Notes under the pieces: model-generated
Told to the model about the DNA's origin: nothing
The model's input: the letters and a program-made list of their open reading frames with translations, nothing else
The model's database searches: none
Program-made: the position numbers and the translations under genes
In this document: piece by piece, positions 1,064 through 46,997 of the stretch
How positions within the stretch are numbered: position 1 is the stretch's first letter
Layout: each line of letters opens with the position of its first letter
Assembly (NCBI RefSeq): GCF_025144665.1
Contig: NZ_CP102294.1
Location: 372,001 to 436,000, forward strand
Origin: Alistipes ihumii AP11
GTDB taxonomy: Bacteria; Bacteroidota; Bacteroidia; Bacteroidales; Rikenellaceae
DNA: 64,000 bases
Direction of reading: 5' to 3'

Positions 1064-1480
1064 ATGAAACTGCTGATCATAAACGGTCCCAATCTGAATC
1101 TGCTCGGACAACGCGAAAAAGGCATCTACGGAGAACGGACGTTCGAGTCCTATCTGGAAGAACTGCGCGGACGATTCCCCGGGGTGACGATCGACTGCTA
1201 CCAGTCCAACATCGAAGGCGAGATCGTCGACCGGCTCCACGCCTCGCAGGACGTCTACGACGGAGTCGTGATCAATGCCGGAGCCTATACCCATACCTCG
1301 ATCGCAATCGCCGATGCGATCGGAGGCATCCGCACGCCGGTGGTCGAGGTGCACATTTCCTGTATTCTGGCCCGGGAGGAGTACCGCCACGTCTCGCTGA
1401 TCGCGCCCAAATGCAAGGGGTCGGTCATGGGCTTCGGACTCGACTCGTACCGGCTCGGTCTGCTCAGTTTCATGGAATGA
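1064..1480 (+). CDS. aroQ: 3-dehydroquinate dehydratase, type II
   Basis: This enzyme removes water from 3-dehydroquinate to give 3-dehydroshikimate, the third step of the shikimate pathway. The 138-residue protein is close to the usual length of about 145. Type II signatures are clear: NGPNLNLLG (7-15), catalytic Tyr22 in KGIYG, the NAGAYTHTS substrate loop (71-79), and His97 in EVHIS. The start is chosen because the first residues MKLLIINGP form the family's first strand. Pyruvate kinase follows 52 nt downstream on the same strand, so the two may be cotranscribed up to the terminator at 3033. Confidence 0.96.
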   Translation: MKLLIINGPNLNLLGQREKGIYGERTFESYLEELRGRFPGVTIDCYQSNIEGEIVDRLHASQDVYDGVVINAGAYTHTSIAIADAIGGIRTPVVEVHISCILAREEYRHVSLIAPKCKGSVMGFGLDSYRLGLLSFME

Positions 1481-1532
1481 ACCGTCTCCGGCCGCCGGCG
1501 CGCCCGGAACAGACAAACGGAAATCGAAAGCT

Positions 1533-3002
1533 ATGGATAAAAGAACCAAAATAATCGCCACGATCTCGGACAAGCGCTGCGAGGTAGAGTTCATCCGCTC
1601 CCTGTACGAGGCCGGCATGAACGCCGTGCGTATCAACACGGCTCACGTCACGACCCGCAGCGCGGCGACGATCGTCGAAAACGTCCGCCGCGTCTCCGAG
1701 AAGATCGCTATCATCATCGACACCAAAGGACCCGAAATCCGCCTGACCGGCATGGCCGCCGGCTTCGAGAGCGGCATTCCCATCGAAAAGGGACAGCTTG
1801 TCCGGATGAAGGGCACGGCCGAAGACCGTCCGTCGAGCGATCAAACGATATATCTGAACGACCCGACGATATACGATGCGGTTCCGACCGGATCGATCAT
1901 CCTGATAGACGACGGCGAACTCGAACTGCAAGTGGTCGACAAAGCCGATGACGAGCTGGTCTGCGAGGTGCATAACGGCGGCGTAATCAAACCCCGCAAG
2001 AGCGTGAACATTCCCGGCGTACCGATCGACCTTCCCTCGGTGACGGACAAGGACCACGAGTTCATCAATTGGGCGATCGACATGGATATCGACTTCATCG
2101 CCCACTCGTTCGTCCGGAAAAAGTCGGACGTTCTGGCCGTCAAGAAGATACTCAAGGACCGCAACAGCTCGATCAAAATCATCTCGAAAATCGAGAACAG
2201 CGAAGGCGTAGACAATATCGACGAGATACTCGACGAGACGTACGGTATTATGGTCGCCCGGGGCGATCTGGGCGTCGAGATTCCGGCCGAGCGGATTCCG
2301 GTCACGCAGCGGCTGCTCGTCAAGAAGTGCATCGAGAGCAAAAAGCCCGTCATCATCGCCACGCAGATGCTTCATACGATGATCGAGCATCCGAGGCCGA
2401 CCCGGGCCGAAATCAGCGACGTGGCCAATGCGATCTATCAGCGGGTGGACGCCGTGATGCTGAGCGGTGAAACGGCCAACGGGCTCTATCCGGTCGAGGC
2501 CGTCGCCACGATGGCCCGCGTAGCGCGAGAGATCGAGAACGACGAAGTGAACAACGGTCCGAACATCGATATGAATCTGGTGCGCATCAACAACGAAATC
2601 ACGGCTCAGCTCGCGCGCTCCGCCGTACGGGCTTCGATCAACCTGCGCGTCAAGGCGATCGTCATCGACACGCTGTCGGGCCGTACCGGACGCTACGTAG
2701 CGGCGTTCCGGGGGCAGATGCCGGTCTATGCCGTCTGCTACCGCAAGAGCACGATGCGTCAACTGGCTCTCTCGTACGGCGTCCATGCGATCTATTGCGA
2801 GCCTTCCGTCAGCCGCGAAGGCTTCTTGTTGAACATACTCTACTATCTCGAAGACCGGAAATGGCTCTCCAAGGAAGACCTGATCGTCGTATTGGGCGGC
2901 AGCTTCGGAGCGGCTACAGGCGCGTCTTTCCTCGAAATAGGAAACGTGCTGAATCTGGAGCACAAAGCCCTGAGTCAATACAATGCTTACAGAAAGGATT
3001 GA
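1533..3002 (+). CDS. pyk: Pyruvate kinase
   Basis: Converts phosphoenolpyruvate and ADP to pyruvate and ATP, the last glycolytic step. The 489-residue protein carries the expected signatures: the IDTKGPEIRL strand, SKIENSEG with the catalytic Lys (about 223), VARGDLGVEIP, TQMLHTMI and PRPTRAEISDVANA followed by DAVMLSGETANG. The substrate segment usually written RxNFSH reads RINTAH, a variant I recall from other Bacteroidota enzymes, so it is probably not a defect. The C-terminal regulatory domain is complete. A strong hairpin terminator follows 30 nt after the stop. Confidence 0.96.
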   Translation: MDKRTKIIATISDKRCEVEFIRSLYEAGMNAVRINTAHVTTRSAATIVENVRRVSEKIAIIIDTKGPEIRLTGMAAGFESGIPIEKGQLVRMKGTAEDRPSSDQTIYLNDPTIYDAVPTGSIILIDDGELELQVVDKADDELVCEVHNGGVIKPRKSVNIPGVPIDLPSVTDKDHEFINWAIDMDIDFIAHSFVRKKSDVLAVKKILKDRNSSIKIISKIENSEGVDNIDEILDETYGIMVARGDLGVEIPAERIPVTQRLLVKKCIESKKPVIIATQMLHTMIEHPRPTRAEISDVANAIYQRVDAVMLSGETANGLYPVEAVATMARVAREIENDEVNNGPNIDMNLVRINNEITAQLARSAVRASINLRVKAIVIDTLSGRTGRYVAAFRGQMPVYAVCYRKSTMRQLALSYGVHAIYCEPSVSREGFLLNILYYLEDRKWLSKEDLIVVLGGSFGAATGASFLEIGNVLNLEHKALSQYNAYRKD

Positions 3003-3032
3003 TTGCCGGAGGAAGATTCTGCGATACGAGCG

Positions 3033-3068
3033 AAGCGCGCCTCTGCCTCGAGCATAGGCGCGCTTTTT
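3033..3068 (+). terminator. Intrinsic terminator after pyk
   Basis: Perfect 10-bp stem AAGCGCGCCT / AGGCGCGCTT with a 13-nt loop, running into TTTTT. It separates pyk from the convergent butyrate kinase gene. Confidence 0.85.
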
Positions 3069-3181
3069 ATGGAAAATCATACGGAATAAGCGGTTCCGGT
3101 ATCGGACAGCCGAAACAGCGGAGCGACTCTTCGGGAGACTGCCCGACTTCAGACCGGCAAGCCGATTTCCGAAAGAGCCCT

Positions 3182-4261
3182 CTATTCATAAATTTTCGGA
3201 CGCTCCTCTCCGCGCAGCACGCGCAGCGCGTTCTCGGCCAATGCGCCCATCTCGTCCTCGCCCGGCATGACGACAACGGGCGCGACGAACGCCGTCCGCC
3301 GGCGGATCAGATCGCAGACCGTTTCGCTATAAGCGATACCGCCGGTCAGCAGCACCGCATCGACCCGGCCTTCGAGCACGGCAGCCATCGCGCCGATCTG
3401 CTTGGCCACCTGATAGGCCATAGCTTCGATCACTCGGCGGCAATCGTCGTCGCCGGCCTTCATCCGCTCGACGATCTCGCGCACGCTGTTCGAACCGACC
3501 CACGCAGACAATCCTCCCCGACCGCATATCATTCGGCGCACCTCTTCGGCCGAAAATTTCCCGCCGAAGCAAAGATCGGCCAACTGTCCGGCGGGAAGCG
3601 ATCCGGAACGATCCGGAGAGAGTGCGCCGTCGCCGTCCAGCGCATTGTTCACGTCGACGACCCGCCCCCGGCGATGAGCGCCGACCGATATACCGCCGCC
3701 CATGTGCGCGACGATCAGATTCATATCCTCGTATGCCCGGCCGTTTTCCCGTGCATAGCGCCGGCCTGTCGCCTTCTGATTCAGCGCATGGAAAATCGAC
3801 ACGCGCCGGAAAAGCGGATGGCCGGCCACGCGCGCCACGTCGTCCAGCTCGTCGACGACGACCGGGTCTGCGATGAATGCCCGCGCTCCGGGAATACGCG
3901 ATGCGATATCGGCCGCGATCAACCCGCCCAGATTCGAGGCATGCTCGCCCTGCGGAGCATGGCCCAAGTCGCGCCGCAGCGCGTCGTTTACCTCGTAGAC
4001 TCCCGACTCGATCGGCTTGACCAAGCCTCCCCGGCCGATCACGGCCGAGAGCGAAGCGAACTCGACGCCCTCCTCCCGCAGAGCCTCCAGAACCAGATCG
4101 CGCCGAAAGCCGAACTGGTCCGCAACGCACGCATAAGGCTTCAGCTCGTCGGCCGAGTGCCGTATCGTGCGGGACACGCGCTCGCGCAGATCGTCGTAAA
4201 CCGACACTTTGGTCGACGTGGCCCCCGGATTGACGACCAGTATGACATATTGCCTATCCAT
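3182..4261 (-). CDS. buk: Butyrate kinase family (short-chain acyl kinase)
   Basis: Catalyses acyl phosphate + ADP to free acid + ATP, with butyrate or a branched short-chain acid as product. The 359-residue protein is in the usual range for Buk (about 355). ASKHA-fold signatures: VNPGATSTKV at the N terminus, FHALNQKATGR, AHMGGGISVGAH, DGDGALSPDRSG and VLLTGGIAYS near the C terminus. The start is the ATG at 4261; the reading frame stays open further upstream into ptb, but that part is out of frame with the neighbour and has no family similarity. The gene lies 20 nt downstream of ptb, its usual partner. Whether the substrate is butyryl- or isobutyryl/isovaleryl-phosphate cannot be read from sequence. 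Confidence 0.92.
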   Translation of the reverse strand: MDRQYVILVVNPGATSTKVSVYDDLRERVSRTIRHSADELKPYACVADQFGFRRDLVLEALREEGVEFASLSAVIGRGGLVKPIESGVYEVNDALRRDLGHAPQGEHASNLGGLIAADIASRIPGARAFIADPVVVDELDDVARVAGHPLFRRVSIFHALNQKATGRRYARENGRAYEDMNLIVAHMGGGISVGAHRRGRVVDVNNALDGDGALSPDRSGSLPAGQLADLCFGGKFSAEEVRRMICGRGGLSAWVGSNSVREIVERMKAGDDDCRRVIEAMAYQVAKQIGAMAAVLEGRVDAVLLTGGIAYSETVCDLIRRRTAFVAPVVVMPGEDEMGALAENALRVLRGEERPKIYE

Positions 4262-4281
4262 TGCTTCTTTCTGCCGGGTAA

Positions 4282-5184
4282 TTAATCGGCGGACAAAGCG
4301 GCCAGCGCGATCGAATAGAGCTTCGACTCGGGCGAGTCGCCGCGCGAGGTCAATACGCACGGGCACCGCGTTCCTACGACCATACCGGCCAACCGGGCGC
4401 CGCACAGTTTGGTCGCCGCCTTGAAGAAGGCATTGGCCGCATCCAGATTCGGAAACAGCAGGCAGTCGGCATCGCCCGCGACGGAACTCGTCAGCCTTTT
4501 GGTCTCGGCCGCTTCGCGAACGAGCGCGACGTCGACCGCCAGCGGACCGTCGACCAACGCATCGCCCAGCTGTCCCCGGTCGCCCATTTTGGCGAGTATC
4601 GCCGCATCGACCGACGACTGTATGCCGGGCAACATCTGCTCGCTCGGTGCGATGACGGCCAATTTCGGAGCCCGGATGCCGAGCGTCCGGGACGTTCCGA
4701 TCAGATACTTGGCGATACGGATTTTCTGATTCATATCGGGGCAGGGTATCACCGCCACGTCCGACACGAGCAACAGCTTGTGATACATAGGCAATTCCAG
4801 TACGGCGACATGGCTCAGCACGCCTTTGGGCGGCAGCAGTCCGAAATCTTTGTTCAGAATACCGCGCATGTACTTGTCCGTCGACACGAGCCCTTTCATC
4901 AGCACGTCGGCCATCGAATCGCGTATCATTCGCACCGCGGTCTCGACGCAAACAGCATCATTTTTTTCGTCTACGATCGAAAACTTCTCCGGGTCGATCC
5001 CGTCGGCCATGCAGACTTTGACAATCTGCTCCCTGTCGCCGATCAGAATAGCTTCGACGATACCCATGTCCGTAGCGGCGTTCACGGCCTCGAGCGTGTG
5101 CGAATCTTGGGGGTAAGCCACTGCCAGCTTCTTCCTGCCCCGGCCCTGAACGGCCCGGACGATCTGATCGAGTTTCGTTATCAT
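4282..5184 (-). CDS. ptb: Phosphate butyryltransferase family
   Basis: Transfers the acyl group of butyryl-CoA (or a related short acyl-CoA) to phosphate, feeding the kinase encoded directly downstream. The 300-residue protein matches the family length. Signatures include AVAYPQDSHTLEAV at the N terminus, ADVLMKGLVSTDKYMRGILNK in the centre, VIPCPDMNQK, and a C-terminal GDADCLLFPNLDAANAF. It forms a two-gene operon with buk. The ackA terminator lies just upstream, and a promoter-like pair overlaps that hairpin. No butyryl-CoA-forming genes (thl, hbd, crt, bcd) are in the window. Confidence 0.92.
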   Translation of the reverse strand: MITKLDQIVRAVQGRGRKKLAVAYPQDSHTLEAVNAATDMGIVEAILIGDREQIVKVCMADGIDPEKFSIVDEKNDAVCVETAVRMIRDSMADVLMKGLVSTDKYMRGILNKDFGLLPPKGVLSHVAVLELPMYHKLLLVSDVAVIPCPDMNQKIRIAKYLIGTSRTLGIRAPKLAVIAPSEQMLPGIQSSVDAAILAKMGDRGQLGDALVDGPLAVDVALVREAAETKRLTSSVAGDADCLLFPNLDAANAFFKAATKLCGARLAGMVVGTRCPCVLTSRGDSPESKLYSIALAALSAD

Positions 5185-9642: not shown

Positions 9643-13345
<3,703 letters not shown>

Positions 13346-34004: not shown

Positions 34005-35228
34005 ATGGATCTGACCATAGTAAAGCAGCGTTTCGGAATCATAGGCAACAACGACGCACTGAACAGGGCACTGGAGGTGGCTTTGCGGGTGGCTCCTACC
34101 GATTTGTCGGTCCTCGTGACGGGCGAAAGCGGGGTAGGAAAGGAGTTTTTCCCTCAAATAATCCACGCCAACAGCAGCCGCAAGCACGGCAACTACATCG
34201 CGGTCAACTGCGGAGCCATTCCCGACGGGACGATCGACTCGGAGCTTTTCGGACACGAGAAGGGAGCGTTCACGGGCGCGACGGAAAGCCGCAAGGGCTA
34301 TTTCGAAGTAGCGGACGGAGGCACGATCTTCCTCGACGAAGTGGCCGAGCTGCCGCACACGACCCAAGTCCGGCTGCTGCGCGTGCTGCAAACCGGCGAG
34401 TTCATCCGCGTCGGATCGTCGAAAGCGCAGAAGACCAACGTTCGGGTCGTCGCGGCGACCAACATCAATCTGCGCAATGCCATAGCCGAAGGGCGCTTCA
34501 GGGAGGACCTCTATTATCGGCTCAATACGGTCCCCATACTCATTCCTCCTCTGCGGGAGCGCAAAGGAGACATCCATCTGCTTTTCCGAAAGTTCGCCGT
34601 CGATATCGCAACGCAGTACCGCATGCCGGCCATTTCGCTGGACGAGCAGGCAAGAGAAATGCTCGAAAGCTACGGTTGGCCCGGCAATATCCGCCAGCTC
34701 AAAAACGTAGCCGAGCAGATTTCGGCTATCGAGCCGACCCGAACGATCACCGGAGAGATTCTGCGCCGCTACCTGCCCGCCGAAACCGAGCGCAGCGGCG
34801 TGCCCATGCTGACGGAGCCGTCCGCAGCCAAGGACCGCAGCGACGAGCGGGAGCTGCTGTATAAAGTGCTTTTCGACTTGCGAAGCGACATGAACGACGT
34901 CAAGCGGATGCTCGCCGAACTGATCGCCGAGCGCAAGTACGAGGCCCCGAAAAGCGACATCGCGGCTCTGCTTCCGCGCAGCAACTATCCGGTAACCTCG
35001 CCTGTCAGGCCGGCCGAAGAAATATTCACCGATACGGAAGAAGTGATCGACGAGCCTCCGCACGAGGAAATGACCAAGGAAAAAGCCCAGCGCGAAGCGA
35101 TCGTCCGCGCGTTGCGTCACCACGGCGGCAAGCGCAGGGACGCGGCCCGCGAGCTTTTCATATCCGAAAGAACGCTGTACAGAAAAATGAAAGAGCTGGG
35201 AATCGACGATTCCTGCATCAAGCCATGA
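34005..35228 (+). CDS. Sigma-54-dependent transcriptional activator without receiver domain
   Basis: A 407-residue enhancer-binding protein made of only the AAA+ domain and a Fis-type HTH. Walker A is GESGVGKE (about 40-47), the sigma-54 contact loop is intact as GAFTGA (about 88-93), Walker B is GGTIFLDE, and REDLYYRLNTVPILIPPLRER and YGWPGNIRQLKN follow. The C-terminal HTH reads GGKRRDAARELFISERTLYRKMKELGI. No input domain precedes the AAA+ part, so activity may be set by expression or partner proteins. A Pro/Glu-rich linker (about 265-360) is longer than usual. It heads the lptE-secG run. Confidence 0.92.
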   Translation: MDLTIVKQRFGIIGNNDALNRALEVALRVAPTDLSVLVTGESGVGKEFFPQIIHANSSRKHGNYIAVNCGAIPDGTIDSELFGHEKGAFTGATESRKGYFEVADGGTIFLDEVAELPHTTQVRLLRVLQTGEFIRVGSSKAQKTNVRVVAATNINLRNAIAEGRFREDLYYRLNTVPILIPPLRERKGDIHLLFRKFAVDIATQYRMPAISLDEQAREMLESYGWPGNIRQLKNVAEQISAIEPTRTITGEILRRYLPAETERSGVPMLTEPSAAKDRSDERELLYKVLFDLRSDMNDVKRMLAELIAERKYEAPKSDIAALLPRSNYPVTSPVRPAEEIFTDTEEVIDEPPHEEMTKEKAQREAIVRALRHHGGKRRDAARELFISERTLYRKMKELGIDDSCIKP

Positions 35229-37193: not shown

Positions 37194-38285
37194 CTACTTG
37201 GTAACGACTTCCCAGACTTTGATCCTTCGATCCGAGCCGTCGGGGCCCTCTACATACAAGGTAACGGTCCATTCGCCGGCCTTCGGATAGCGGTGAACGG
37301 GGCAGGGTTCGTCGGCTCCGGTCCCGTCGCCGAAATTCCAGCGCCGCTTCTCGATCTTTCCTCGTGAACGGTCCTCGAAACGGATAAGCCTTCGGTCTCG
37401 GTCGATTTCCTCGAAAGACCAATCGGCCTCGATCACGGGACACAGCGAATCTTCCAGCGGCATGAGCCGGAAAGCGTTCAGAAACGACCCGTCGCGAATC
37501 ATGCGGAAATCGTGCGACAGACACATGACCGGGTCGGCCTGAGGCTTATCCGTATCGAAATCGATCATGCACCACGACAGGCCGATCAGCTCGTTCTCTT
37601 CCAGCCGCGACACGACCGAACGCGAAATGCCCTCTACAGCCGCATAATCGAACGGGGTGATCCAAAACTCCATGCGAAGCGTACCGCTCTCGCCTTGCGC
37701 GAAATCGTAATCGTACGCCACGTTCGCATAGGGGAAGTCCTTGATCCACGGAGTCGAGCCCCACACCATAGCCCAATCCTTGCCGGGCTGTACCGGAGTG
37801 AAGATATGGTAATTCTGCGCATGCGCTCCGTGTCCTTTGAAATGAAGGTCCGAGACCGGCAGCTTGTTCCGATTGCCGTTGTCCTCCTTGATGAACGGCC
37901 CTCCGGACAGGTCGGCATCGACCACCAATTCGAAAATATCCTGCCGCAGCCCCTCATCGGCAAAGTCCCAGCAGTCGTCGTAGGCCTCCACGTAGAAATA
38001 GAGACGATTCTCGCCGGCCACCCAGCCGACCTTCACCGTCAGGTCGAACTCGCGCGGATCGAGTCGAGCTCCCCGCCCGCCGTGCGTATCGTACAGCTCA
38101 GACAATCCGACCGAATAAGAGTCGGGCACGATTTCCCAGTCCGAGAAATCGCCGTCGATGCGCGGAATCGCCGTACGCGGAAACTGGAAAACCTTGTACT
38201 CCTTATCGGGACGGGCGAACGCCCATGCACGAGGCGAGACGACGCAAGCCAATACAATAAAAAACAAACAATTAATCCTTTTCAT
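37194..38285 (-). CDS. Exported CBM9-like and PKD domain protein
   Basis: A 363-residue protein with a signal peptide (MKRINCLFFIVLACVVSPRAWA). Residues about 30-240 look like a CBM9/DOMON-type beta-sandwich: IPRIDGDFSDWEIVPDSYSVG and AGENRLYFYVEAYDDCWDF, with DIFELVVDADLSGG. The C-terminal 85 residues form a PKD-like domain with the typical RRWNFGDGTG and HRYPKAGEWTVTLYV. No catalytic domain is recognised, so it may bind glycan and keep enzymes or substrate at the surface. It is the last gene of the five-gene minus-strand run. Confidence 0.78.
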   Translation of the reverse strand: MKRINCLFFIVLACVVSPRAWAFARPDKEYKVFQFPRTAIPRIDGDFSDWEIVPDSYSVGLSELYDTHGGRGARLDPREFDLTVKVGWVAGENRLYFYVEAYDDCWDFADEGLRQDIFELVVDADLSGGPFIKEDNGNRNKLPVSDLHFKGHGAHAQNYHIFTPVQPGKDWAMVWGSTPWIKDFPYANVAYDYDFAQGESGTLRMEFWITPFDYAAVEGISRSVVSRLEENELIGLSWCMIDFDTDKPQADPVMCLSHDFRMIRDGSFLNAFRLMPLEDSLCPVIEADWSFEEIDRDRRLIRFEDRSRGKIEKRRWNFGDGTGADEPCPVHRYPKAGEWTVTLYVEGPDGSDRRIKVWEVVTK

Positions 38286-38382
38286 CGAATCATTTTATTC
38301 AGATAATCCACGTTCTGTTCGCGAAAACGCCGAAAGGGCCTCGCGAAAACTCCGGCCGCCGAACAGGCGACGATTCCGGAAC

Positions 38383-40692
38383 TCATTCCGCAAAAGCCTC
38401 GTCGCACATCGACTGAGGCAGATCGCCGGGCGAGCTTCCCCAATCGCGGTTCGGCCGAGCTCCCATTTCGAAAGTCAGGGTCGCATCGCCGCCGAAAAGC
38501 TCCTCGTGGCTCAGCCAGTTTTTCGTGAAGGGCCGTCCGTTGAGCGAAGCCGACCGGATATAGCGGTTCTCGCGCGAAACGCCGTTCGCTCGGACCGTCA
38601 GCACGCCCCGCCCGTGACGAAGCTTCACCTCGGGGAAAATGGGCGTGCCGACGAAATAGACCGCCCGCCCGTGCGTTACCGGGTAGAAGCCCATCGAGCT
38701 CATCACGTACCAAGCCGACATCTGCCCCGTATCGTCATTGCCGCAGATTCCTTCGGGCGAAGCATCGTACAGCGTGTAAAGCACGTCGGCGATCCGCCGC
38801 TGGGCTTTCCACGGCTCGCCGGCATAATTGTACATGTACAGCGTGTGGTGACCGGGCTCGTTCCCTTGGGCGTACTGTCCGATCAGGCCCGTAATGTCCG
38901 GCGCCGGATTGTCGCCGTGTATCTCGGAGCTGACCGTGAAGAGCGAGTCGAGTTTGGCTACGAAAAGCTCCCGTCCGCCGAACAAATCGATCAGTCCCTT
39001 TCCATCGTGCGGCACGAAAAACGTCCACTGCCACGAGGTCCCCTCGCAGAAGTCGTCCCCCTCGCGGTAATGATTCGACAGAAACGGGTCGAACGGCGTG
39101 CGCCAGCTTCCGTCGGAAAGCCTGCCTCGCATGAAGCGCAGCGAACTGTCGAACAGATTGCGGTAACGGCCGGCGCGCTCGATGTAGCGCTCGTAATCCT
39201 CCTCGCGACCCAGCATGCGCGCCATCTGCGCGATGCACCAGTCGTCGTAGCAGTATTCGAGCGTCTTCGACACGGAAGTGATCTCCAGATCGCAGGGCAC
39301 ATAGCCGTAGCGGTTGTAATGACGCGCGCCGCGGAACGCTTTCAGGAAATAGCCGAAGGTATCGCGGTCGGACGATGCTTTCATCGCCTCGTACAGGGCC
39401 TCTACATCGAAATCGCGGATTCCCTTGCTATAGGCATCGGCTATCACCGGCATCGAATGGTACCCGATCATGCACATATTCTCGACTCCCGCAAGCGTCC
39501 AGATAGGCAACTGGCCGCAATGGCGATAGTGCTCGAGCATCGTTTTCATCAAATCGCGCGTGACGTCGGGCCGCAGAATAGCGATCAACGGATTCTGCGC
39601 CCGGAACGTATCCCACAGACTCAACACGCCTGCGAAATAGCGGAAGTCGCCCCGGTACACTTTCGAGTCGGAGCTCCGATACTCTCCCGTCACGTCGGAA
39701 TAGAGCATAGGGTAGAGCATAGCGTAATAAAGGCTGGTATAGAAAACTTCCCGGCGGGACGGTTCCCCGCCCTCGATCCGAACGGCTGACAGCTGCTCGT
39801 TCCACGCACTATAGGCGGAGGAGCGCACCCGGTCGAAGTTCCAGCCTTTGATTTCGGCCGACAGATTTTCCCGGGCCCCTTCCATGCTGACCGGAGAAAT
39901 CCCGACACGCGCCACGAGCGGTCGTCCGTCCCGGCCACCGAAATTCAGCACGGCCCGGACATCCGTTCCCTCGAGCTCGCGAATCCCTTCGACCGACCGC
40001 CCATGGTCGAAAAAGCGGCACGAACGGATCGGCTCCGAAAACTCCGCATAGAAATAGACATGCTGCTCGGGCGCCCAGCCGTTCGAGATGCGGAACCCGC
40101 GCACGGTGCGCTCGTCGACCCACTCGAGCCTCGAGACCTTCACCGTATCGAAATCCTCGTCGGCGAATATCGTCGTCGAGTGCTGACAACCGTGCTTCAG
40201 GTCGACGATCAGCTGCCGCGCCGCGCCGTCCGGATAAGCATACCGGTGCATGCCACAGCGGGAAGTCGCCGTCAGCTCGGCCTCGATGTCCGAGTCGAGC
40301 AGCCTGACCCGGTAATACCCGGGCTCGACATGCTCCTGCTCATGCGAGAAACGGCTGCCGACACGATCGGGATAAACCTCCAGCCGCTGCCATGCGCTAT
40401 CCGCCACCGGGAAAAACATAATGTCCTGAAAATCGGTTCCGCCGCCGCCCGACTTGTGCGTATGGCTGAAGCCATAGATCACATCGTGGTCGTAGTGGTA
40501 GCCCGACGAGGTGAAATAGGTGTCGGGACCGAGCTGCACCATCCCGAACGGAGCAGCCGCCACCGGCACGACGCAGCCGGCCGCCCCGGTTCCCATCATC
40601 GGACGGACGAGGGAAGCGGGCTCCGCCCCGGCGGCAAGCGTCGCCGCATACAGCGGCATCGCAGCCGCCAGAATCATTTTATGGTAATCCAT
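38383..40692 (-). CDS. GH92 alpha-mannosidase, exported
   Basis: Calcium-dependent exo-alpha-mannosidase family; members cleave alpha-1,2, -1,3, -1,4 or -1,6 mannosyl links or mannose phosphate. The start at 40692 gives a signal peptide (MDYHKMILAAAMPLYAATLAAGA) and 768 residues, the normal GH92 length. Signatures: RPMMGTG near the N terminus, AAPFGMVQLGPDT, YGFSHTHKSGGGG, SLWDTFRAQNPL, YAQGNEPGHHTLYMYNYAG and GNDDTGQMSAWYVMSSMGFYPV. The linkage cannot be read with certainty. It is fourth in the cluster, after the unassigned 712-residue gene, with a 73-nt gap containing a hairpin. Confidence 0.93.
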   Translation of the reverse strand: MDYHKMILAAAMPLYAATLAAGAEPASLVRPMMGTGAAGCVVPVAAAPFGMVQLGPDTYFTSSGYHYDHDVIYGFSHTHKSGGGGTDFQDIMFFPVADSAWQRLEVYPDRVGSRFSHEQEHVEPGYYRVRLLDSDIEAELTATSRCGMHRYAYPDGAARQLIVDLKHGCQHSTTIFADEDFDTVKVSRLEWVDERTVRGFRISNGWAPEQHVYFYAEFSEPIRSCRFFDHGRSVEGIRELEGTDVRAVLNFGGRDGRPLVARVGISPVSMEGARENLSAEIKGWNFDRVRSSAYSAWNEQLSAVRIEGGEPSRREVFYTSLYYAMLYPMLYSDVTGEYRSSDSKVYRGDFRYFAGVLSLWDTFRAQNPLIAILRPDVTRDLMKTMLEHYRHCGQLPIWTLAGVENMCMIGYHSMPVIADAYSKGIRDFDVEALYEAMKASSDRDTFGYFLKAFRGARHYNRYGYVPCDLEITSVSKTLEYCYDDWCIAQMARMLGREEDYERYIERAGRYRNLFDSSLRFMRGRLSDGSWRTPFDPFLSNHYREGDDFCEGTSWQWTFFVPHDGKGLIDLFGGRELFVAKLDSLFTVSSEIHGDNPAPDITGLIGQYAQGNEPGHHTLYMYNYAGEPWKAQRRIADVLYTLYDASPEGICGNDDTGQMSAWYVMSSMGFYPVTHGRAVYFVGTPIFPEVKLRHGRGVLTVRANGVSRENRYIRSASLNGRPFTKNWLSHEELFGGDATLTFEMGARPNRDWGSSPGDLPQSMCDEAFAE

Positions 40693-40716
40693 ACTGGTAT
40701 CTCGTTTCAAAGGAAC

Positions 40717-40741
40717 GGGGCCCGCCCGCAAGGCAGGCCCC
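40717..40741 (-). other. mRNA hairpin between the 712-residue gene and the GH92 gene
   Basis: A 10-bp GC-rich stem (40717-40726 with 40732-40741, one G-U pair on the minus strand) and a 5-nt loop. There is no clear T-run after it, so RNA processing or stability is as likely as partial termination. Confidence 0.45.
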
Positions 40742-40765
40742 GCCCGTTTCGGTCCGTAACGGCTA

Positions 40766-42904
40766 TTATTTCCTGCTTTTGGCAGCCTCGGCCTCGCGGT
40801 CGAGCAGATAGTAGATGTTGTCGGCAATCGGCCCCGGGGCGATGAACATGCCGCCGAAAAGACCCGTCACCGAATTGTGCGTATCGGGGAAGCAATAGTC
40901 GAACTCGCCCTGCCGGTAACGCTCGTAAGTCTCAGGAATGTTGTGCGGACGCCAGTTGTCATCCGTGTGCACGCTCATCCACTGGAGCGCCGCGTTCGTG
41001 ATACCGCGCTGAAACTTGAGCCAGTCGATCTCGGGATCGATCTCGTCCCAGCGGATGTTCTCGCGGGCCGACTGGGCGAATACGCCCAGCACTTCCCATT
41101 GCACATGGTCGCGCACCCAGTTGGCGAAATACCAGTCGCTCGAACTGAGCACCGGCTTCGTGTAATAGAGCGACGGCATGTCCTCGGGCTCCCACAGGTG
41201 CGTGAACGGCAGAATCGTGCGAATCCAGTAGACGGCTTTTTGCTTGTACTTTTCGTCGCCGAACTGCTCGTAAGCCTGATAGTTCGCAATGGCGGCATGG
41301 CCGGCGGCGAACAGGTTGGCCGCATGGAGAGGGGTCTCCCAGAAATCGCCGCCCTCCGGCCGGGTCATCGGAAGGCAATAGTCGAGCGCCTTGCGCGCGG
41401 CATCCAAGAAGCGCCGCTCGCCGGTTTCCCGCCCGATGCGGAGCAGATCCATCGCGGGCAGAATCGTGATGTCGAGCGCCGTCGCTCCGTCGAGACCCAT
41501 CGGCTCGACGAACGACGTGGCCACCTTGAAATCGTCCTTACGGAAATGGCGGCCGTCGGGCTCGAATGCGAACGAGCCGTCGGCACGCTGAATCGCCAGA
41601 ATCTCGTCACCCTGTTTTTCGAGACGTTTCTTCCGAGCCTCGTCCGTCTCGGGCTGCGAACCGCCTTTCGGTCTCACGGACTCGATCTTGGCCTGCAACT
41701 GCTTGACGACTTCCGACTTCTTATTCTCCTGCATGTAACGAACCAGAAAACCCGGCACGTTCGGGCCCGCTTCCTCGATCGAGCGTTGCACGACGCCGAA
41801 ACCGCGCCCCTCGTGCCACAGGTTCGTGTTGTATGCCTCGGCCATCCGGTCGAGCGCATCGCGATAGTCCCATCTCGGAGCGGCGGGCTCGGGCAGTCCG
41901 TTGCGCAGCACCCATTCGGTCACCACGTCGACGCTGTTGCCTTTCGTAAGCCAGAGCTCGGCATTGAAAACAATTTTCTGACCGATGCGCAGTTCGAGCG
42001 CATTTTCGGCCCAAAGCTCGTTCTCGTGTCCTTCGGTCGAGGCATCGGGTATCATCAGGCCCATCAGCTGGTTGTTCATCCGGTCGACGAAGTTCGGCGA
42101 GGCGAATACCGGCTGCGGATGCTGCGTACGATAGTTGAACCAGCGAGCGGCCACCTCATTCGGATTCCATGAGAGACCGATCGCGTCGCCGTCATGGCTG
42201 ATCGCCATGACCGGTACGGAAACCTTGTTGGGGTGGGGAGCCACCCGCAATGCCCACGGGTCCTTGAAAAAGTCCGTTCCGCTCGTCCATTCGTCGCCTA
42301 CGGCCCAGTCGACTCCCGGCAGGATCGCGTCGTCTTTGGCCGTGCCGAACGACGACTCGCCGACCTTGAGCCACGGGCCGCGCAGATAGCGCACATGATA
42401 GTTGCCCGTAGCGGTGAGGTCGTAATTCAACTTGACGAAAGGCGAGTCGTCCTCGAGCGCAATCGTCACGACGCCGGTAATGGCCGGCTCGGCAAGCGGG
42501 TAGTGCATCCAGTTGTCGAACGAGGTCCCCTTCAGCATGTCGCGCACGACGACCGACTTGACCCGAAACACCAGACTCTCGCCTTCGGGAGTGCTGACAC
42601 GGGACACCGAATCGGCCTCGAGGCGCATCGGAATGTCCTGATCGCGGATCATCAGCTCGCCCAAATGATCCATCACGGCCATCAACTTGCCCGAGGGAGT
42701 CTCGATCTCGGCCCAGCCCCAGCCCTTAATCCGCTTGAAGAAATGAAGCGTAACGTAGCGGTTTTTCAGCGTAACCGACTCGTTCACATAGCTGCTCTGC
42801 TTGAACTTCGGCTCCAAACCGTTGTCGGCCGCACGAACCTGCCGTACGCCCCACAGACCCGCGCAAAGCGAGGCGAGTCCTATCGAAATAATCAGTTTTT
42901 TCAT
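40766..42904 (-). CDS. Unassigned exported protein of the glycan cluster, candidate alpha/alpha-barrel enzyme
   Basis: I do not recognise a family. The 712-residue protein has a signal peptide (MKKLIISIGLASLCAGLWGVRQVRA). Residues about 30-330 are strand-rich with Trp and aromatic motifs such as WGWAEIETPSGKLMAV, GVDWAVGDEWTSGTDFF and IGLSWNPNEVAARWF. Residues about 345-700 are helical repeats of toroid type: LDRMAEAYNTNLWHEGRGFG, LLRIGRETGERRFLDAARKALDY, WETPLHAANLFAAGHAAIANYQAYEQFG and WYFANWVRDHVQWEVLG. A beta-sandwich followed by an (alpha/alpha) barrel is typical of several hydrolase and lyase families. The gene lies 17 nt after the GH71/GH99-like gene, so a role in the same glycan pathway is likely. 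Confidence 0.7.
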   Translation of the reverse strand: MKKLIISIGLASLCAGLWGVRQVRAADNGLEPKFKQSSYVNESVTLKNRYVTLHFFKRIKGWGWAEIETPSGKLMAVMDHLGELMIRDQDIPMRLEADSVSRVSTPEGESLVFRVKSVVVRDMLKGTSFDNWMHYPLAEPAITGVVTIALEDDSPFVKLNYDLTATGNYHVRYLRGPWLKVGESSFGTAKDDAILPGVDWAVGDEWTSGTDFFKDPWALRVAPHPNKVSVPVMAISHDGDAIGLSWNPNEVAARWFNYRTQHPQPVFASPNFVDRMNNQLMGLMIPDASTEGHENELWAENALELRIGQKIVFNAELWLTKGNSVDVVTEWVLRNGLPEPAAPRWDYRDALDRMAEAYNTNLWHEGRGFGVVQRSIEEAGPNVPGFLVRYMQENKKSEVVKQLQAKIESVRPKGGSQPETDEARKKRLEKQGDEILAIQRADGSFAFEPDGRHFRKDDFKVATSFVEPMGLDGATALDITILPAMDLLRIGRETGERRFLDAARKALDYCLPMTRPEGGDFWETPLHAANLFAAGHAAIANYQAYEQFGDEKYKQKAVYWIRTILPFTHLWEPEDMPSLYYTKPVLSSSDWYFANWVRDHVQWEVLGVFAQSARENIRWDEIDPEIDWLKFQRGITNAALQWMSVHTDDNWRPHNIPETYERYRQGEFDYCFPDTHNSVTGLFGGMFIAPGPIADNIYYLLDREAEAAKSRK

Positions 42905-42921
42905 CGTTCGTTCGGTTTATC

Positions 42922-44772
42922 CTATTCTTCGAAATGGTAGTTGGCCCGGCGCGAAGGAGCCTGATCGCCGTTGAGCAGGAACTCGTCGATATCGCCCAAC
43001 TTCTGAATGCCGTCGGCCCAGTGGAAGTCGAACGACAGCTTGCCTGAGCCGAAAAATTTTCTCGGCACGGCCACCATCAGCTCGTTCCCCTCATAGCGAT
43101 AATCGATCGTCGCAGGCTTCCCCCAGTCGTCGCGTCCATAGGTTCTCACGCCCGTGCGGCGGCCGTCGTGCAACGACTCGTTGACCAGCAGGTCGTAGCC
43201 TTCCCAACCGGTCGAGTGATCGCCGTCGGCATCGATGAACAGCAGCATCCACAACGGATCGGTATGCGGCGTGAGCGGATCGGCCGTTCGGACATAGAAA
43301 TAGACGAAGCGGTCGTCCCGGGCCACCTTCGATTCGACGATATCGTTGCGTCCGGTCCGGTTCACATAGGGCCCGGCCGCGAAATTGCCCGGGCTGTCGC
43401 GGTGATACGTGTCGCCCACATGATCGAAATAGGAATTCTCCACCTGCTTCCACTGGTCGAATCCGCCGTTCAGGTCGATCGTCCGCTCCGGTCCCGCCGC
43501 GACCGGCTCGGCTACACCCTTGTACCTGCGGACGGCCGCCATCAGCTGATAGTAGTAATTGTCGCCGTGACCGCCTTTCATCGGCTCGATGTCGCGGCTG
43601 TACTCCTGATTGTACTGGTCGATGAAATAGGATTCGCCCATTTCGATCTTCCGTCCCCCCTTGCCGCAGTTCGCCCCCGGAAAGAAGTCCCATTGACGCA
43701 TTTCCTCGTCGTAGTCTTCATGACGGCGGGTCATCTGGCCGGCCGTCCACTCGTTCCAGCCCGTCACGAAAACGAACTCGGGATCGACTTCCAAAGCCCG
43801 GCTCCACTGCTCGGCGAAATAGAGTCCCTTGTCGGTATCGGGCGTCACGTCGTAACGGTCGGTTTCGGGCTGCACGCCGTCATGGAAGCTGCGGCCGATG
43901 TTCGACAGCGGATGCTCGGCTACGGCCACAGGTACGTATTCGGCCCGGTCGGGCGACTCGCTCCAGCCGACCGACTGAGGATAATGGTCGACCCAAGGCC
44001 ATTCGTCGTGACCGTCGTCGTACCAGCGGAGCGTCGTCCATGCCCAGCTTTGGCGAATAGTGAAGAAATCGGTAATCGCTTTCGGGAAACGCACGTCGTT
44101 CACTTGCTGGCGATTCCCTGTGACATGCTGCCCGAACAACAGCAGCGGCTTGCCTTTCCATCGGAACCACAAGTCGGCGTAAAGGCCCCGGCTGTAAATT
44201 TTGTCCCAAAGCAATTCGACCGATTTCTGACTGGCCAGACACGCGATCTGCGGCGTCGGCTCGCCTTCGGCGCGCATCCGCCGGAACACGTCGGCGATAA
44301 AACAGAACACGTCCTCGTAAATATGGTCGTTCGTATTGTCCAGCACGATCAGATCGACGCCCGCATCGCACAACTGGCGCGCATGACGTCGAACGATCCA
44401 CTCGTCTTTCATAATATAGTAGCCGGCCTCGGGCTCGCCCCAATAGTGCGTGCCGCCTCCCCATTTCGGATGCTCCGGATCGGCCGCCAGAATCTTCGTC
44501 ACGTCGAACGGCCCCTGCTTGGCGCCGTTGTTATTGTGCGTAACGAAATAGAACATGCCGACCACCCGGTTCCCCTTGCGCGGTCCGCACTCGTCGAAGC
44601 CGGGCAACGCGCGGCCCAGCGCGTCGGTCGCCGTCCACGTATCGGACCGAAGATCCTTCGCTGGTGTCGAAAGCGGCTCGGGAGAAACCGCCCGCAAAGC
44701 AAGCGACCCCAAGCTGCAAGCGACCGACAATATGCCTATTTTCAGAAAATTCGACTTACTCATCTCTATCAA
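42922..44772 (-). CDS. GH71/GH99-like exported hydrolase with CBM9-like C terminus
   Basis: A 616-residue protein; in-frame starts at 44772 and 44763 (MSKSNF) are both possible, each leading into a hydrophobic signal segment. Residues about 60-420 fit the GH71/GH99/WbsX-like TIM-barrel group: GMFYFVTHNNNGAKQGP, RHARQLCDAGVDLIVLDNTN, FRWKGKPLLLFG and the diagnostic WNEW motif in VFVTGWNEWTAGQM (Glu341). Residues about 430-616 form a CBM9-like domain (FDQWKQVENSYFDHVGDTYH, DDRFVYFYVRTADPLT, LLFIDADGDHSTGWEGYDLL). Assignment to GH99 proper (endo-alpha-mannosidase) is not certain. It lies 9 nt after the DUF5722-like gene. Confidence 0.75.
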   Translation of the reverse strand: MIEMSKSNFLKIGILSVACSLGSLALRAVSPEPLSTPAKDLRSDTWTATDALGRALPGFDECGPRKGNRVVGMFYFVTHNNNGAKQGPFDVTKILAADPEHPKWGGGTHYWGEPEAGYYIMKDEWIVRRHARQLCDAGVDLIVLDNTNDHIYEDVFCFIADVFRRMRAEGEPTPQIACLASQKSVELLWDKIYSRGLYADLWFRWKGKPLLLFGQHVTGNRQQVNDVRFPKAITDFFTIRQSWAWTTLRWYDDGHDEWPWVDHYPQSVGWSESPDRAEYVPVAVAEHPLSNIGRSFHDGVQPETDRYDVTPDTDKGLYFAEQWSRALEVDPEFVFVTGWNEWTAGQMTRRHEDYDEEMRQWDFFPGANCGKGGRKIEMGESYFIDQYNQEYSRDIEPMKGGHGDNYYYQLMAAVRRYKGVAEPVAAGPERTIDLNGGFDQWKQVENSYFDHVGDTYHRDSPGNFAAGPYVNRTGRNDIVESKVARDDRFVYFYVRTADPLTPHTDPLWMLLFIDADGDHSTGWEGYDLLVNESLHDGRRTGVRTYGRDDWGKPATIDYRYEGNELMVAVPRKFFGSGKLSFDFHWADGIQKLGDIDEFLLNGDQAPSRRANYHFEE

Positions 44773-44781
44773 AAGTTCGGT

Positions 44782-46920
44782 TCAATCGTTCAGTTCGGGC
44801 CTCATCGGAATAGGCGCCTTGTAGATCACCTGATCCCAATCGTCGATGCCGATAATGTCCTTGGCGAACTCGAATACTTCGTCCTCTCGATCCGTCCCGA
44901 AAGCCTGAAATACGAACCATGCCGGCTTGCGTCCGCCCGGATCGGTCTCGTCGTCCATGAAGCGCCGCACGCCGATCCGCAGGCCGCCCTCGGCCCGCTG
45001 GTCGAACCAGCCGTGCATCTGGTAAGCATCGATTCCGTCGCACGCCTCGAGCTTCTTCATCGCGTAGGCCATACCGGCGGCCTGTTCCCGGAGAGCCTCC
45101 TCGGAGTAGTCCTTCGAGTTGGGATTCTGCTCGGAAAGGAAAACCGTTCTCTTGATCTTGCCCTGATACAGCGCGCGGGGCTGCTTGATCCATGCGTCGA
45201 GCACCTCCAGATTCTTGAACGTAATCTGAGGCGTGTCGTAATCGAACGTCGCCTGATCGTCAAGCCACGATTTGGGCTCGAACAACGACTGGGGGTAGGG
45301 GTGATGAGCGACACCCCATTTGAAATCGCCCTCGGCCTGCGTATAGTCCACGAGCAGCTCGAGCAACTGAGCCGACGGATAGCAGTACTCGTTGTGGCGC
45401 GACTGCCAGTAGTGCGTCAGCGTGATGAACACTTCCGGATGAGGGCTGTACTTGCGGGCCGTATAGTACAACAGGCGCATCGACTTGATATAAATATCCA
45501 TGAAGCGCAGCGGCGTCTTGATACCCGCGTTGGTCCACACCCAACCCGCATCGACCTCGTTGTGGGCGATCCAGTGATGCACGCGGCCGTACTTCTTGTC
45601 GGGACGGCTGTAGCGCTCGGCCAGAAAATCGATCGCGGCGGCATACAGGTTCAGCGACTCGAGCGTCGTCATGTTCGGCATCGTATAGATACCCGCCGGA
45701 TCGAAGTCGGGATGCTCGAACAGCCGTCCGGCCGTTTTGTCGGCGAACGAGCGTTCGGGAGCGATCAGAACGATCGCGTTGACGATTACGTCTCGGGCGG
45801 CCGTATACTGCAACGTCTTGTCGAAACCTTCGATCGCCTTGCGGTCGGCATAATACGTCCGACCGTTATAGTCGAACGGAATCGCATCGTCCGAGGGCGT
45901 CAGGCTCATGAAGCCGAGCCACATGTTGACCGTGACGCTGGTAATGTCCAGACTGTCGAGGTCGGAAGCGAAACGATTCGCTCCGAAACCGCCGATTCCC
46001 TTCTTGCTGGCGGGAACCTCATGGGGCAGATCGTACTTGGCCTTCACGTCGTCGGCATAATGGCCGTGCGAGCAGATCAGCATGCCGTTCTGCGATTTCT
46101 GGGCCAGCACCCAGCGCGAGTACAGCCGGTCGTAGCGCTGGCCGTCCACCTCCGCATAGCGGTCGAAATCGGCCTTGAACTTCTTCGGCCCTTTCACACG
46201 CTGAACAGTCAGAAAGTCTTTTTCGGTCAGTTCGCGGAACATCGGCACCTCGCACAGGTAGACCTCGCCGGACATTCCCTTGATATCTCCGCTGACCTCT
46301 ACGCGGTCGTCGTTCACCGTGACGCGAGACACCTCGCACGGGTAGTTTTTCTTCAGATAGACCTCGATATCGGCATTGAGTTGTTTCTCGCGCCGCTCCC
46401 GCTCGGTCTTCAGCCGGGCCTGCTCCCGTTCTTTCTCCGTATAGGCTCTCAGCCGGGCATTGCGGATACGCATCGTCGTCGGCCGCGCCGCATTCGGAAC
46501 GATCAGCAGGCTCAGATAATCGTCAGGACCTTGCAGCCTCTTCAGCTTGTCGGTCACGTCGACCGAGAAGGTGCTCCATCCTTCGGCTATCGGCAGCCGG
46601 ATCATGTTCTCCTCGATACGCGAACGGTCGTCGTTGACCATCACGACCATGAACTCCATGCCGCTGGCGCAGAAATAGTCGAAGCTGAGCACCGAAATAC
46701 CCTCTGCCAAAGAACCTTTGACCGGCTCGAAGCGGATGACCGCGCTGCCGGGCGCGGTCGTCACCTCGTAGACATCGCGGTCGACTTGCTTGAATGTAAA
46801 TTCCTTCGATTCGGTGGGACGAACGGTCAATGCGACCGGTTCCGGAGTCTGGGCGCCGAGCCTGTACAGACCCGACAGCGCACCCGCCAGCAACAGGCTG
46901 GCAAGAATCTTCCTTCGCAT
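44782..46920 (-). CDS. Exported clan GH-A-like protein (DUF5722-type)
   Basis: A 712-residue protein, first in the cluster, with a signal peptide (MRRKILASLLLAGALSGLYRLGA). Residues about 30-160 are a beta-sandwich of CBM type, followed by a Glu/Arg-rich linker helix. Residues about 280-700 form a TIM-barrel-like domain resembling DUF5722. Two Glu residues fit a retaining clan GH-A active site: Glu455 in HHWIAHNEVDAGW (the Asn-Glu acid/base pattern) and Glu597 in VFLSEQNPN (nucleophile-like). Substrate unknown. The DUF5722 name is from memory of the pattern and should be confirmed by profile search. Confidence 0.72.
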   Translation of the reverse strand: MRRKILASLLLAGALSGLYRLGAQTPEPVALTVRPTESKEFTFKQVDRDVYEVTTAPGSAVIRFEPVKGSLAEGISVLSFDYFCASGMEFMVVMVNDDRSRIEENMIRLPIAEGWSTFSVDVTDKLKRLQGPDDYLSLLIVPNAARPTTMRIRNARLRAYTEKEREQARLKTERERREKQLNADIEVYLKKNYPCEVSRVTVNDDRVEVSGDIKGMSGEVYLCEVPMFRELTEKDFLTVQRVKGPKKFKADFDRYAEVDGQRYDRLYSRWVLAQKSQNGMLICSHGHYADDVKAKYDLPHEVPASKKGIGGFGANRFASDLDSLDITSVTVNMWLGFMSLTPSDDAIPFDYNGRTYYADRKAIEGFDKTLQYTAARDVIVNAIVLIAPERSFADKTAGRLFEHPDFDPAGIYTMPNMTTLESLNLYAAAIDFLAERYSRPDKKYGRVHHWIAHNEVDAGWVWTNAGIKTPLRFMDIYIKSMRLLYYTARKYSPHPEVFITLTHYWQSRHNEYCYPSAQLLELLVDYTQAEGDFKWGVAHHPYPQSLFEPKSWLDDQATFDYDTPQITFKNLEVLDAWIKQPRALYQGKIKRTVFLSEQNPNSKDYSEEALREQAAGMAYAMKKLEACDGIDAYQMHGWFDQRAEGGLRIGVRRFMDDETDPGGRKPAWFVFQAFGTDREDEVFEFAKDIIGIDDWDQVIYKAPIPMRPELND

Positions 46921-46997
46921 AGAATATTAAAAGTTTAGGTTAAGTAATACTTGTCTCGCCTCTCGAGGCGCAGCAACTCTAAAATACAATAATACGG

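Follow-up and report, generated by a model that had tools for sequence, protein, structure and literature searches.

The 64,000-nucleotide stretch analysed here (the window; bases 372001-436000 of the 2.78 Mb single-contig genome of Alistipes ihumii AP11, NZ_CP102294.1) carries on its minus strand five consecutive open reading frames (ORFs; 37194-46920, transcription order A, B, C, D, E), a set that four genomes keep together at the same chromosomal site. A fusion found in another genus links A with B. Elsewhere, C, B, E, and A are repeatedly met as a group, as a rule without SusC/SusD, and C recurs near α-L-rhamnosidases. We propose, at a probability of about 0.4, that the block forms a conserved operon whose five products, exported and mostly periplasmic, would finish the breakdown of imported rhamnose/uronate oligosaccharides, with an α-mannosidase added to the set. 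The genes are:

44782-46920, minus strand: gene A, 712 amino acids (aa), DUF5722 (PF18989) by Pfam, with a clan GH-A-like residue pattern and a signal-like N-terminus
42922-44763, minus strand: gene B, 613 aa from ATG (a TTG start at 44772 is possible), GH99-like with a further C-terminal domain
40766-42904, minus strand: gene C, 712 aa, no Pfam, NCBIfam, or PDB sequence match, predicted β-sandwich plus (α/α) barrel
38383-40692, minus strand: gene D, 769 aa, predicted GH92 α-mannosidase, catalytic Glu and Asp kept in the alignment
37194-38285, minus strand: gene E, 363 aa, unassigned N-terminal domain and a C-terminal PKD domain (Pfam)

This layout largely reproduces that of an earlier, sequence-only reading of the window (the initial annotation), including the gaps of 17, 73, and 97 nt that follow B, C, and D; the 9-nt gap given there between A and B depends on the TTG start at 44772 and becomes 18 nt when B starts at its ATG. 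The signal peptides claimed for all five proteins are seen, by eye, as signal-like N-termini. Also by eye, no convincing lipobox is found in A, B, C, or D, and only a weak one in E; release into the periplasm thus seems likelier than anchoring as surface lipoproteins, although the D orthologues of loci L048 and L049 do have a lipobox-like stretch. That A-E are real genes follows from their orthologues in three further genomes, in the same order and at 73-81% protein identity; an opposite-strand open frame of 1256 aa (43168-46938) was taken as a by-product of the high G+C content.

Conservation as a unit, whose failure the initial annotation had named as what would speak against its proposal, holds in four of the nine genus genomes examined: the block is whole and collinear in G005, G002, G006, and the home genome (one of these block-bearing relatives is Alistipes sp. 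dk3624). Its site is constant in the four, between feoB and a gene row starting with a secG-like gene, as named by eye. C was not found in the remaining five genus genomes, two of which are less than 80% complete; in a wider set of 101 relatives, 13 genomes have a B homologue and 7 a C homologue. In four of the five block-less genus genomes the 5' side of feoB has other neighbours (about 9-17 kb examined; L155, L156, L157, and L158), and the only match there to any other queried window gene is a GH92 gene in L158, at 34% identity. The empty site that might be expected at feoB was not seen in these four, which makes it impossible to decide between gain and loss of the block. In two loci an exported protein of about 1000 aa, absent from the window, sits between block and feoB (L048:13411-16344, L049:13693-16725); the L048 copy has an MG2 match below cut-off.

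Beyond the genus, the alignment of C was scanned against a genome collection of 84,980 species, yielding 122 pattern matches and 56 loci. These come from Bacteroidota, Paenibacillus, Bacillus, rumen Clostridia, Chloroflexi, Planctomycetes, and Hydrogenedentota, with one metagenome-assembled genome (MAG) each labelled Deinococcales and Chthonomonadaceae; many of the loci are MAGs, for which single labels may be wrong. Three loci belong to the block genomes G005, G002, and G006, and 49 of the other 53 can be tested for neighbours, L112, L116, and L123 being too short and L128 having its C piece under the ORF limit. In the flanking DNA examined, a GH78- or GH106-type gene lies near C in 22 of the 49 testable loci (11 of 18 in Bacteroidota), and a GH78-type gene is also present in L128, outside this count; for comparison, about 12-14% of 20-22 kb stretches drawn at random from the home genome, itself rich in rhamnosidases, contain such a gene. 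B is found near C in 14 of the 49, E in 6, A in 5, a sulfatase in 5, and D in none. Rhamnosidases, sulfatases, and GH43 are the recurrent neighbours of C elsewhere, joined in three loci by a rhamnose-mutarotase cluster (the names GH78, GH106, sulfatase, GH43, and rhamnose-mutarotase were each Pfam-checked on one cluster member). Genome-wide, the 7 genomes with a C match have higher GH78 counts than the 94 without one (p 1.3e-5, uncorrected for kinship, with at most 18 candidates scored per genome); G067, which is among the seven, carries no more than a fragment of C and 3 GH78 genes. Within the genus the counts are 13-18 with C and 7-12 without, two of the lower genomes being incomplete.

In Marinoscillum furvescens (L122), A and B are fused in one 1282-aa frame, at 48% identity to A and then 55% to B, beside C and E; in a Prolixibacteraceae MAG (L100), the gene row reads GH78-A-C-E-B-GH106-B. 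A phylogeny of 59 B proteins, computed without support values, groups the window B with those of L047-L049, L079, L087, L051, L080, and L122, and places the two L100 proteins in the clades of the home genome's two other clear B genes. The home genome has 13 GH78-type places, one strong GH106 match, and several weaker ones; the strong GH106 gene adjoins a second B-type gene, with two GH43-like genes (named by eye) nearby. What L100 carries in a single row thus seems to be spread over three places in the home genome.

No SusC/SusD pair adjoins the block. In this it differs from the Sus-type polysaccharide utilization loci (PULs), which it otherwise resembles as a cluster of exported carbohydrate-related proteins in Bacteroidota. 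The home genome has 6 SusD and 14 TonB plug places; none lies inside the window, as stated in the initial annotation, and the nearest are 192 kb (SusD) and 156 kb (TonB plug) from the block. With profiles built from five home-genome pairs, 50 C loci elsewhere give no SusD and a single SusC-like frame (L130); the same profiles did detect SusC/SusD-type genes next to the B paralogues of L060 and L061, and all 19 genomes behind the Bacteroidota C loci carry SusD somewhere. The absence of SusC/SusD is thus usual for C loci and not special to this block. The window was also said to lack a regulator; regulator-like genes do occur in it, at 34005 and 57264, named by eye from their N-termini, and none of these is beside the block (no profile search for regulators was made).

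Protein C has no family in Pfam or NCBIfam and no match among PDB chains, by sequence or by profile search. Its AlphaFold model (pLDDT 87.1, pTM 0.89; 43-row alignment) predicts an N-terminal β-sandwich followed by a C-terminal (α/α) barrel, in agreement with the build originally read from the sequence; a first model from 5 rows reached a pLDDT of 49 and was discarded. The 43 rows leave out homologues with stops inside the match (L082, L084, L086, L090, L097, L112, L120), incomplete ones (L102, L118, L123, L124, L126, L128), repeats (L075, L077, L078), and the near-identical L048. In VIA-align, residues 23-336 resemble β-sandwich domains, best that of the PL26 exo-rhamnogalacturonan lyase (5XQG and others; Z 18.8, root-mean-square deviation (rmsd) 3.3, 243 aligned, 14% identity), with which GH36-type (Z 18.5) and other chains tie. 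Residues about 341-707 resemble GH88 unsaturated glucuronyl hydrolases, sugar epimerases, and GH76 (Z about 15, rmsd about 5). In Foldseek, chains 5NOK/5NO8 of the PL27 L-rhamnose-α-1,4-D-glucuronate lyase BACCELL_00875 reach a probability of 1.00 and the top query-normalised TM-score among the best 50 matches listed. C is like this lyase in length and domain order, the order in PL27 being N-terminal β-sandwich, then C-terminal (α/α) barrel (according to the available part of PMC8377490); against the likeness, the PDB-chain profile search gave no sequence match and the whole-chain fold match is weak. Many acidic residues are invariant in C (D457, D458, E523, D590, D599, E604, D623, D627), as are many His, Arg, Tyr, and Asn residues. 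Two C homologues have C5-epim_C matches (E 0.012 and 0.014), which are below cut-off and a hint only. Of 21 homologues examined from outside Bacteroidota, 13 have a stop at most 12 codons upstream of the conserved start and hence no space for a signal peptide, which fits action on small oligosaccharides after import.

Protein B is related to GH99 but fails the defining feature of that family. It scores 17.9 bits with Pfam Glyco_hydro_99, below the cut-off of 33 (22.3 bits for the homologue in L051), and its profile matches chain 4ACY of GH99 (E 0.0042) where the latter has its Asn-Glu-Trp strand. GH71 and GH99 share a D/E-x-x-E dyad, in the available text of PMC12394665. In an alignment of 59 B proteins (60 matches, one repeat dropped; numbering of the 610-residue reading 42922-44754), the first dyad position is Glu in all 59 (E335), and the second, Ala338 in the window, is Ala in 57, Met in one, and Ser in one; both the Glu-x-x-Glu of GH99 and the Asp-x-x-Glu of GH71 are thus absent from B. 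The change matters in GH71, where replacement of the second dyad Glu by Ala lowered the activity of AnGH71B and AnGH71C by 1,596- and 15,427-fold (same source). A Prevotella enzyme of the GH71/99 kind described in 2026 keeps the GH71-type motif; the part of that report available to us leaves its preferred substrate open and says that little is known of 71/99-like proteins (PMC13421300). With Ala in 57 of 59 homologues, B is not an ordinary GH71 or GH99 protein: it is like these families in the sub-threshold match and the first dyad residue, and differs in the Ala and an extra C-terminal region. Four further acidic residues (D134, D139, E272, D379) are invariant in all 59 rows; either another acid would have replaced the lost dyad Glu, or B would only bind. 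The CBM9 domains initially assigned to the C-terminus of B and the N-terminus of E, the former beside a GH71/GH99-like assignment that stands as distant GH99 kinship, find no Pfam match up to E 0.1, and a comparison of the B and E profiles (hhalign, shallow, 5 rows each) gives a probability of 3%. B-type genes are multiplied in some genomes, with three to five copies per cluster (L052 = G005:C1:2955001-2975000, L055 = G005:C1:1885001-1905000, L053, L054) and about a dozen in one Alistipes genome.

Protein A belongs to DUF5722 (PF18989; 383 bits, cut-off 30.5). Its residues N454-E455 are invariant in 22 of 22 and E597 in 21 of 21 homologues (23 rows, of which 4 are repeats of the same genes). 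Retaining enzymes of clan GH-A are TIM barrels in which the acid/base Glu follows an Asn and a second Glu is the nucleophile; by this residue pattern, A is clan GH-A-like. A sequence search of the PDB with A gave nothing useful, and no papers on DUF5722/PF18989 were found. A second DUF5722 gene lies in the home genome near 2295656 (L062:8161-10452), with a lipoprotein-like start, shortly after kdpABC-like genes (names by eye).

The GH92 assignment of D is borne out by domain scores above cut-off (PF07971 580 bits, PF17678 225 bits, TIGR01180 655 bits) and by a full-length match to 6F8Z (594 bits); D is predicted to be a GH92 exo-α-mannosidase. The nearest solved chain is BT3130, with BT3965 next but one; the BT3130 clade is mainly α-1,3-active and BT3965 is α-1,4-active, according to the accessible part of PMC5930347. 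The general acid Glu535 and general base Asp637 of BT3130 align with Glu and Asp in D (hand-counted numbering), so that D shares both with these exo-α-mannosidases. At His581 and the residue following it, D has Pro-Asp; the His-Glu pair found in the +1 subsite of α-1,2 enzymes is thus absent from it.

Protein E has PKD as its only Pfam match, and no enzyme signature. In three of five family loci with E homologues, E comes either immediately after a GH2-type gene or with one gene between (named by likeness in L180, checked in L181 and L182); neighbours were read in L180-L182, the A+T-richer L179 and L183 being unreadable with home-genome codon scores. In L182, from another genus of the family, BNR_4 and GH28 genes (1163-4544) and also a GH35-like one lie near E. 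The rhamnose-glucuronate lyase FoRham1, announced as PL42 in the available part of PMC8377490, belongs to Pfam family BNR_4.

Taken together, these properties suggest the following course. The five genes would be co-transcribed, and the oligosaccharides would enter through a transporter encoded elsewhere. In the periplasm, C may act in exo fashion on ends carrying L-rhamnose and uronic acid, as a PL27-like lyase or as a hydrolase of the same build; A (clan GH-A-like) and B (GH99-like, with an altered acid) could cleave the next linkages while E holds the substrate chain, and D would take off α-mannose, probably not α-1,2-linked. The oligosaccharides would probably derive from plant material (a gum or an arabinogalactan-type side chain) or from a bacterial exopolysaccharide bearing rhamnose and mannose. 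A more far-reaching view at the level of families, which we think possible but less likely than not, is that C would represent an uncharacterised carbohydrate-active family of several phyla with a PL27-like two-domain build, directed at rhamnose/uronate linkages; that B would be a GH99-like hydrolase whose general acid is relocated or missing; and that with A and E they would form a rhamnose module without SusC/SusD, its proteins exported in Bacteroidota but mostly lacking signal peptides in other phyla.

Several results weigh against this proposal, and fold and neighbourhood do not establish activity. The whole-chain TM-score between C and PL27 is only 0.31, with rmsd 13 (Foldseek), and the best Foldseek E-values go to cellobiose phosphorylases, PL26 and PL27 coming after. 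PL27 is not among the best 50 VIA-align matches, which include PL26, GH36-type, GH174, GH88, and GH76 chains; this weakens the likeness to PL27 without excluding it. Genomically, the examined DNA of 27 of the 49 testable C loci contains no rhamnosidase, A or E occurs in none of the tested rumen Clostridia C loci, and the nearest rhamnosidase-type place in the home genome is 91 kb from the block. Full-length E relatives (52-55% identity) occur in five family genomes where no C was found. As for D, GH92 is not known to have a role in arabinogalactan side chains.

A variant that is compatible with rhamnose/uronate breakdown, and which we regard as quite possible if somewhat short of probable, makes C a glycoside hydrolase (e.g. 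a uronidase or rhamnosidase) and not a lyase, acting on the same oligosaccharides. It is favoured by the GH88 and GH76 matches of the barrel, by the many invariant Asp and Glu residues, and by the Foldseek lead of the cellobiose phosphorylases, which have the same domain order as C; but many His, Arg, Tyr, and Asn residues, of the kind that lyases use, are invariant too, and no catalytic site was located in the model. Starting from D instead, the set would degrade α-mannan or N-glycans, the GH92 protein trimming mannose, B being endo-α-mannosidase-like, and A, C, and E assisting. The complete GH92 domains of D with their catalytic residues, the distant kinship of B with a family of endo-α-mannosidases and mannanases, and the GH76 α-mannanases among the fold matches of the C barrel all fit; we nevertheless consider this reading unlikely, as GH92 was found to accompany C only in the four block genomes and in none of the 49 other testable loci, B is without the second dyad residue, and the company C keeps elsewhere is of rhamnosidases, sulfatases, and GH43. 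The initial annotation had likewise described the block as a self-contained set acting on an α-mannose-containing glycan. Its picture of an exported set for small glycans is retained here; the α-mannose part, which derives from GH92 and the distant GH99 kinship, is only partly supported, since the wider B/C/E/A module tracks α-L-rhamnosidases.

In a further reading, B and E may be non-catalytic binding proteins, with A, C, and D as the only enzymes; this would account for the Ala in place of the dyad Glu, a change that crippled AnGH71B and AnGH71C, and for the lone PKD match of E. We think it doubtful: E335, D134, D139, E272, and D379 are kept throughout, which is more than binding seems to need, and in L122 B shares one frame with the enzyme-like A. 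We consider it very improbable that mere accident has placed five genes of separate pathways side by side. A hairpin between C and D in two of the four genomes could split A-B-C from D-E, E occurs without C in five family genomes, and D was not found with the module outside the genus; but order and site are identical in four genomes, and both the A-B fusion and the grouping of B with C and E outside the genus speak for a common role.

The hairpin of the window lies between C and D:

40715-40743, minus strand: G+C-rich hairpin in the C-D gap, possible partial terminator (z -2.5)

A strong G+C-rich hairpin is also present in the C-D gap of L047 (about 12581-12611, z -2.9, followed by six U) and absent from those of L048 and L049; where present, it may reduce the expression of D and E. 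It was not picked up by the terminator scan, which gave 5 terminator-like matches against 10.2 expected; sigma-70-type promoter matches numbered 6 against 3.7, and both counts are uninformative. No TTTG/TANNTTTG promoter lies upstream of A, all 4 places in the window being elsewhere.

Judged by sequence families, the genes all belong, closely or distantly, to known kinds of protein, except C, which is nameless in Pfam and NCBIfam; novelty is judged here against Pfam, NCBIfam, and PDB, and a CAZy family number may already exist for A, B, or C. Literature searches, judged from their listings, returned no paper on the five-gene combination or the module. If the proposal holds, two widespread families without known function would gain testable roles in the breakdown of rhamnose glycans, and Bacteroidota would keep a recurrent glycan module without SusC/SusD that is missed by PUL-finding rules built on that pair; B would become a test case for a GH71/GH99-like barrel working after loss of its second catalytic glutamate.

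Two further recurrences were seen around C. A family of about 960 aa lies near it in 5 of the 49 loci (L103:12004-14886, L083, L081, L093, L127), with no Pfam match in the one member scanned. In the rumen Clostridia loci L111, L115, L117, and L126, the genes before C, as judged by eye, encode a member of the GH78 cluster, a protein of about 580-670 aa, and a nucleosidase-like one of about 230-245 aa.

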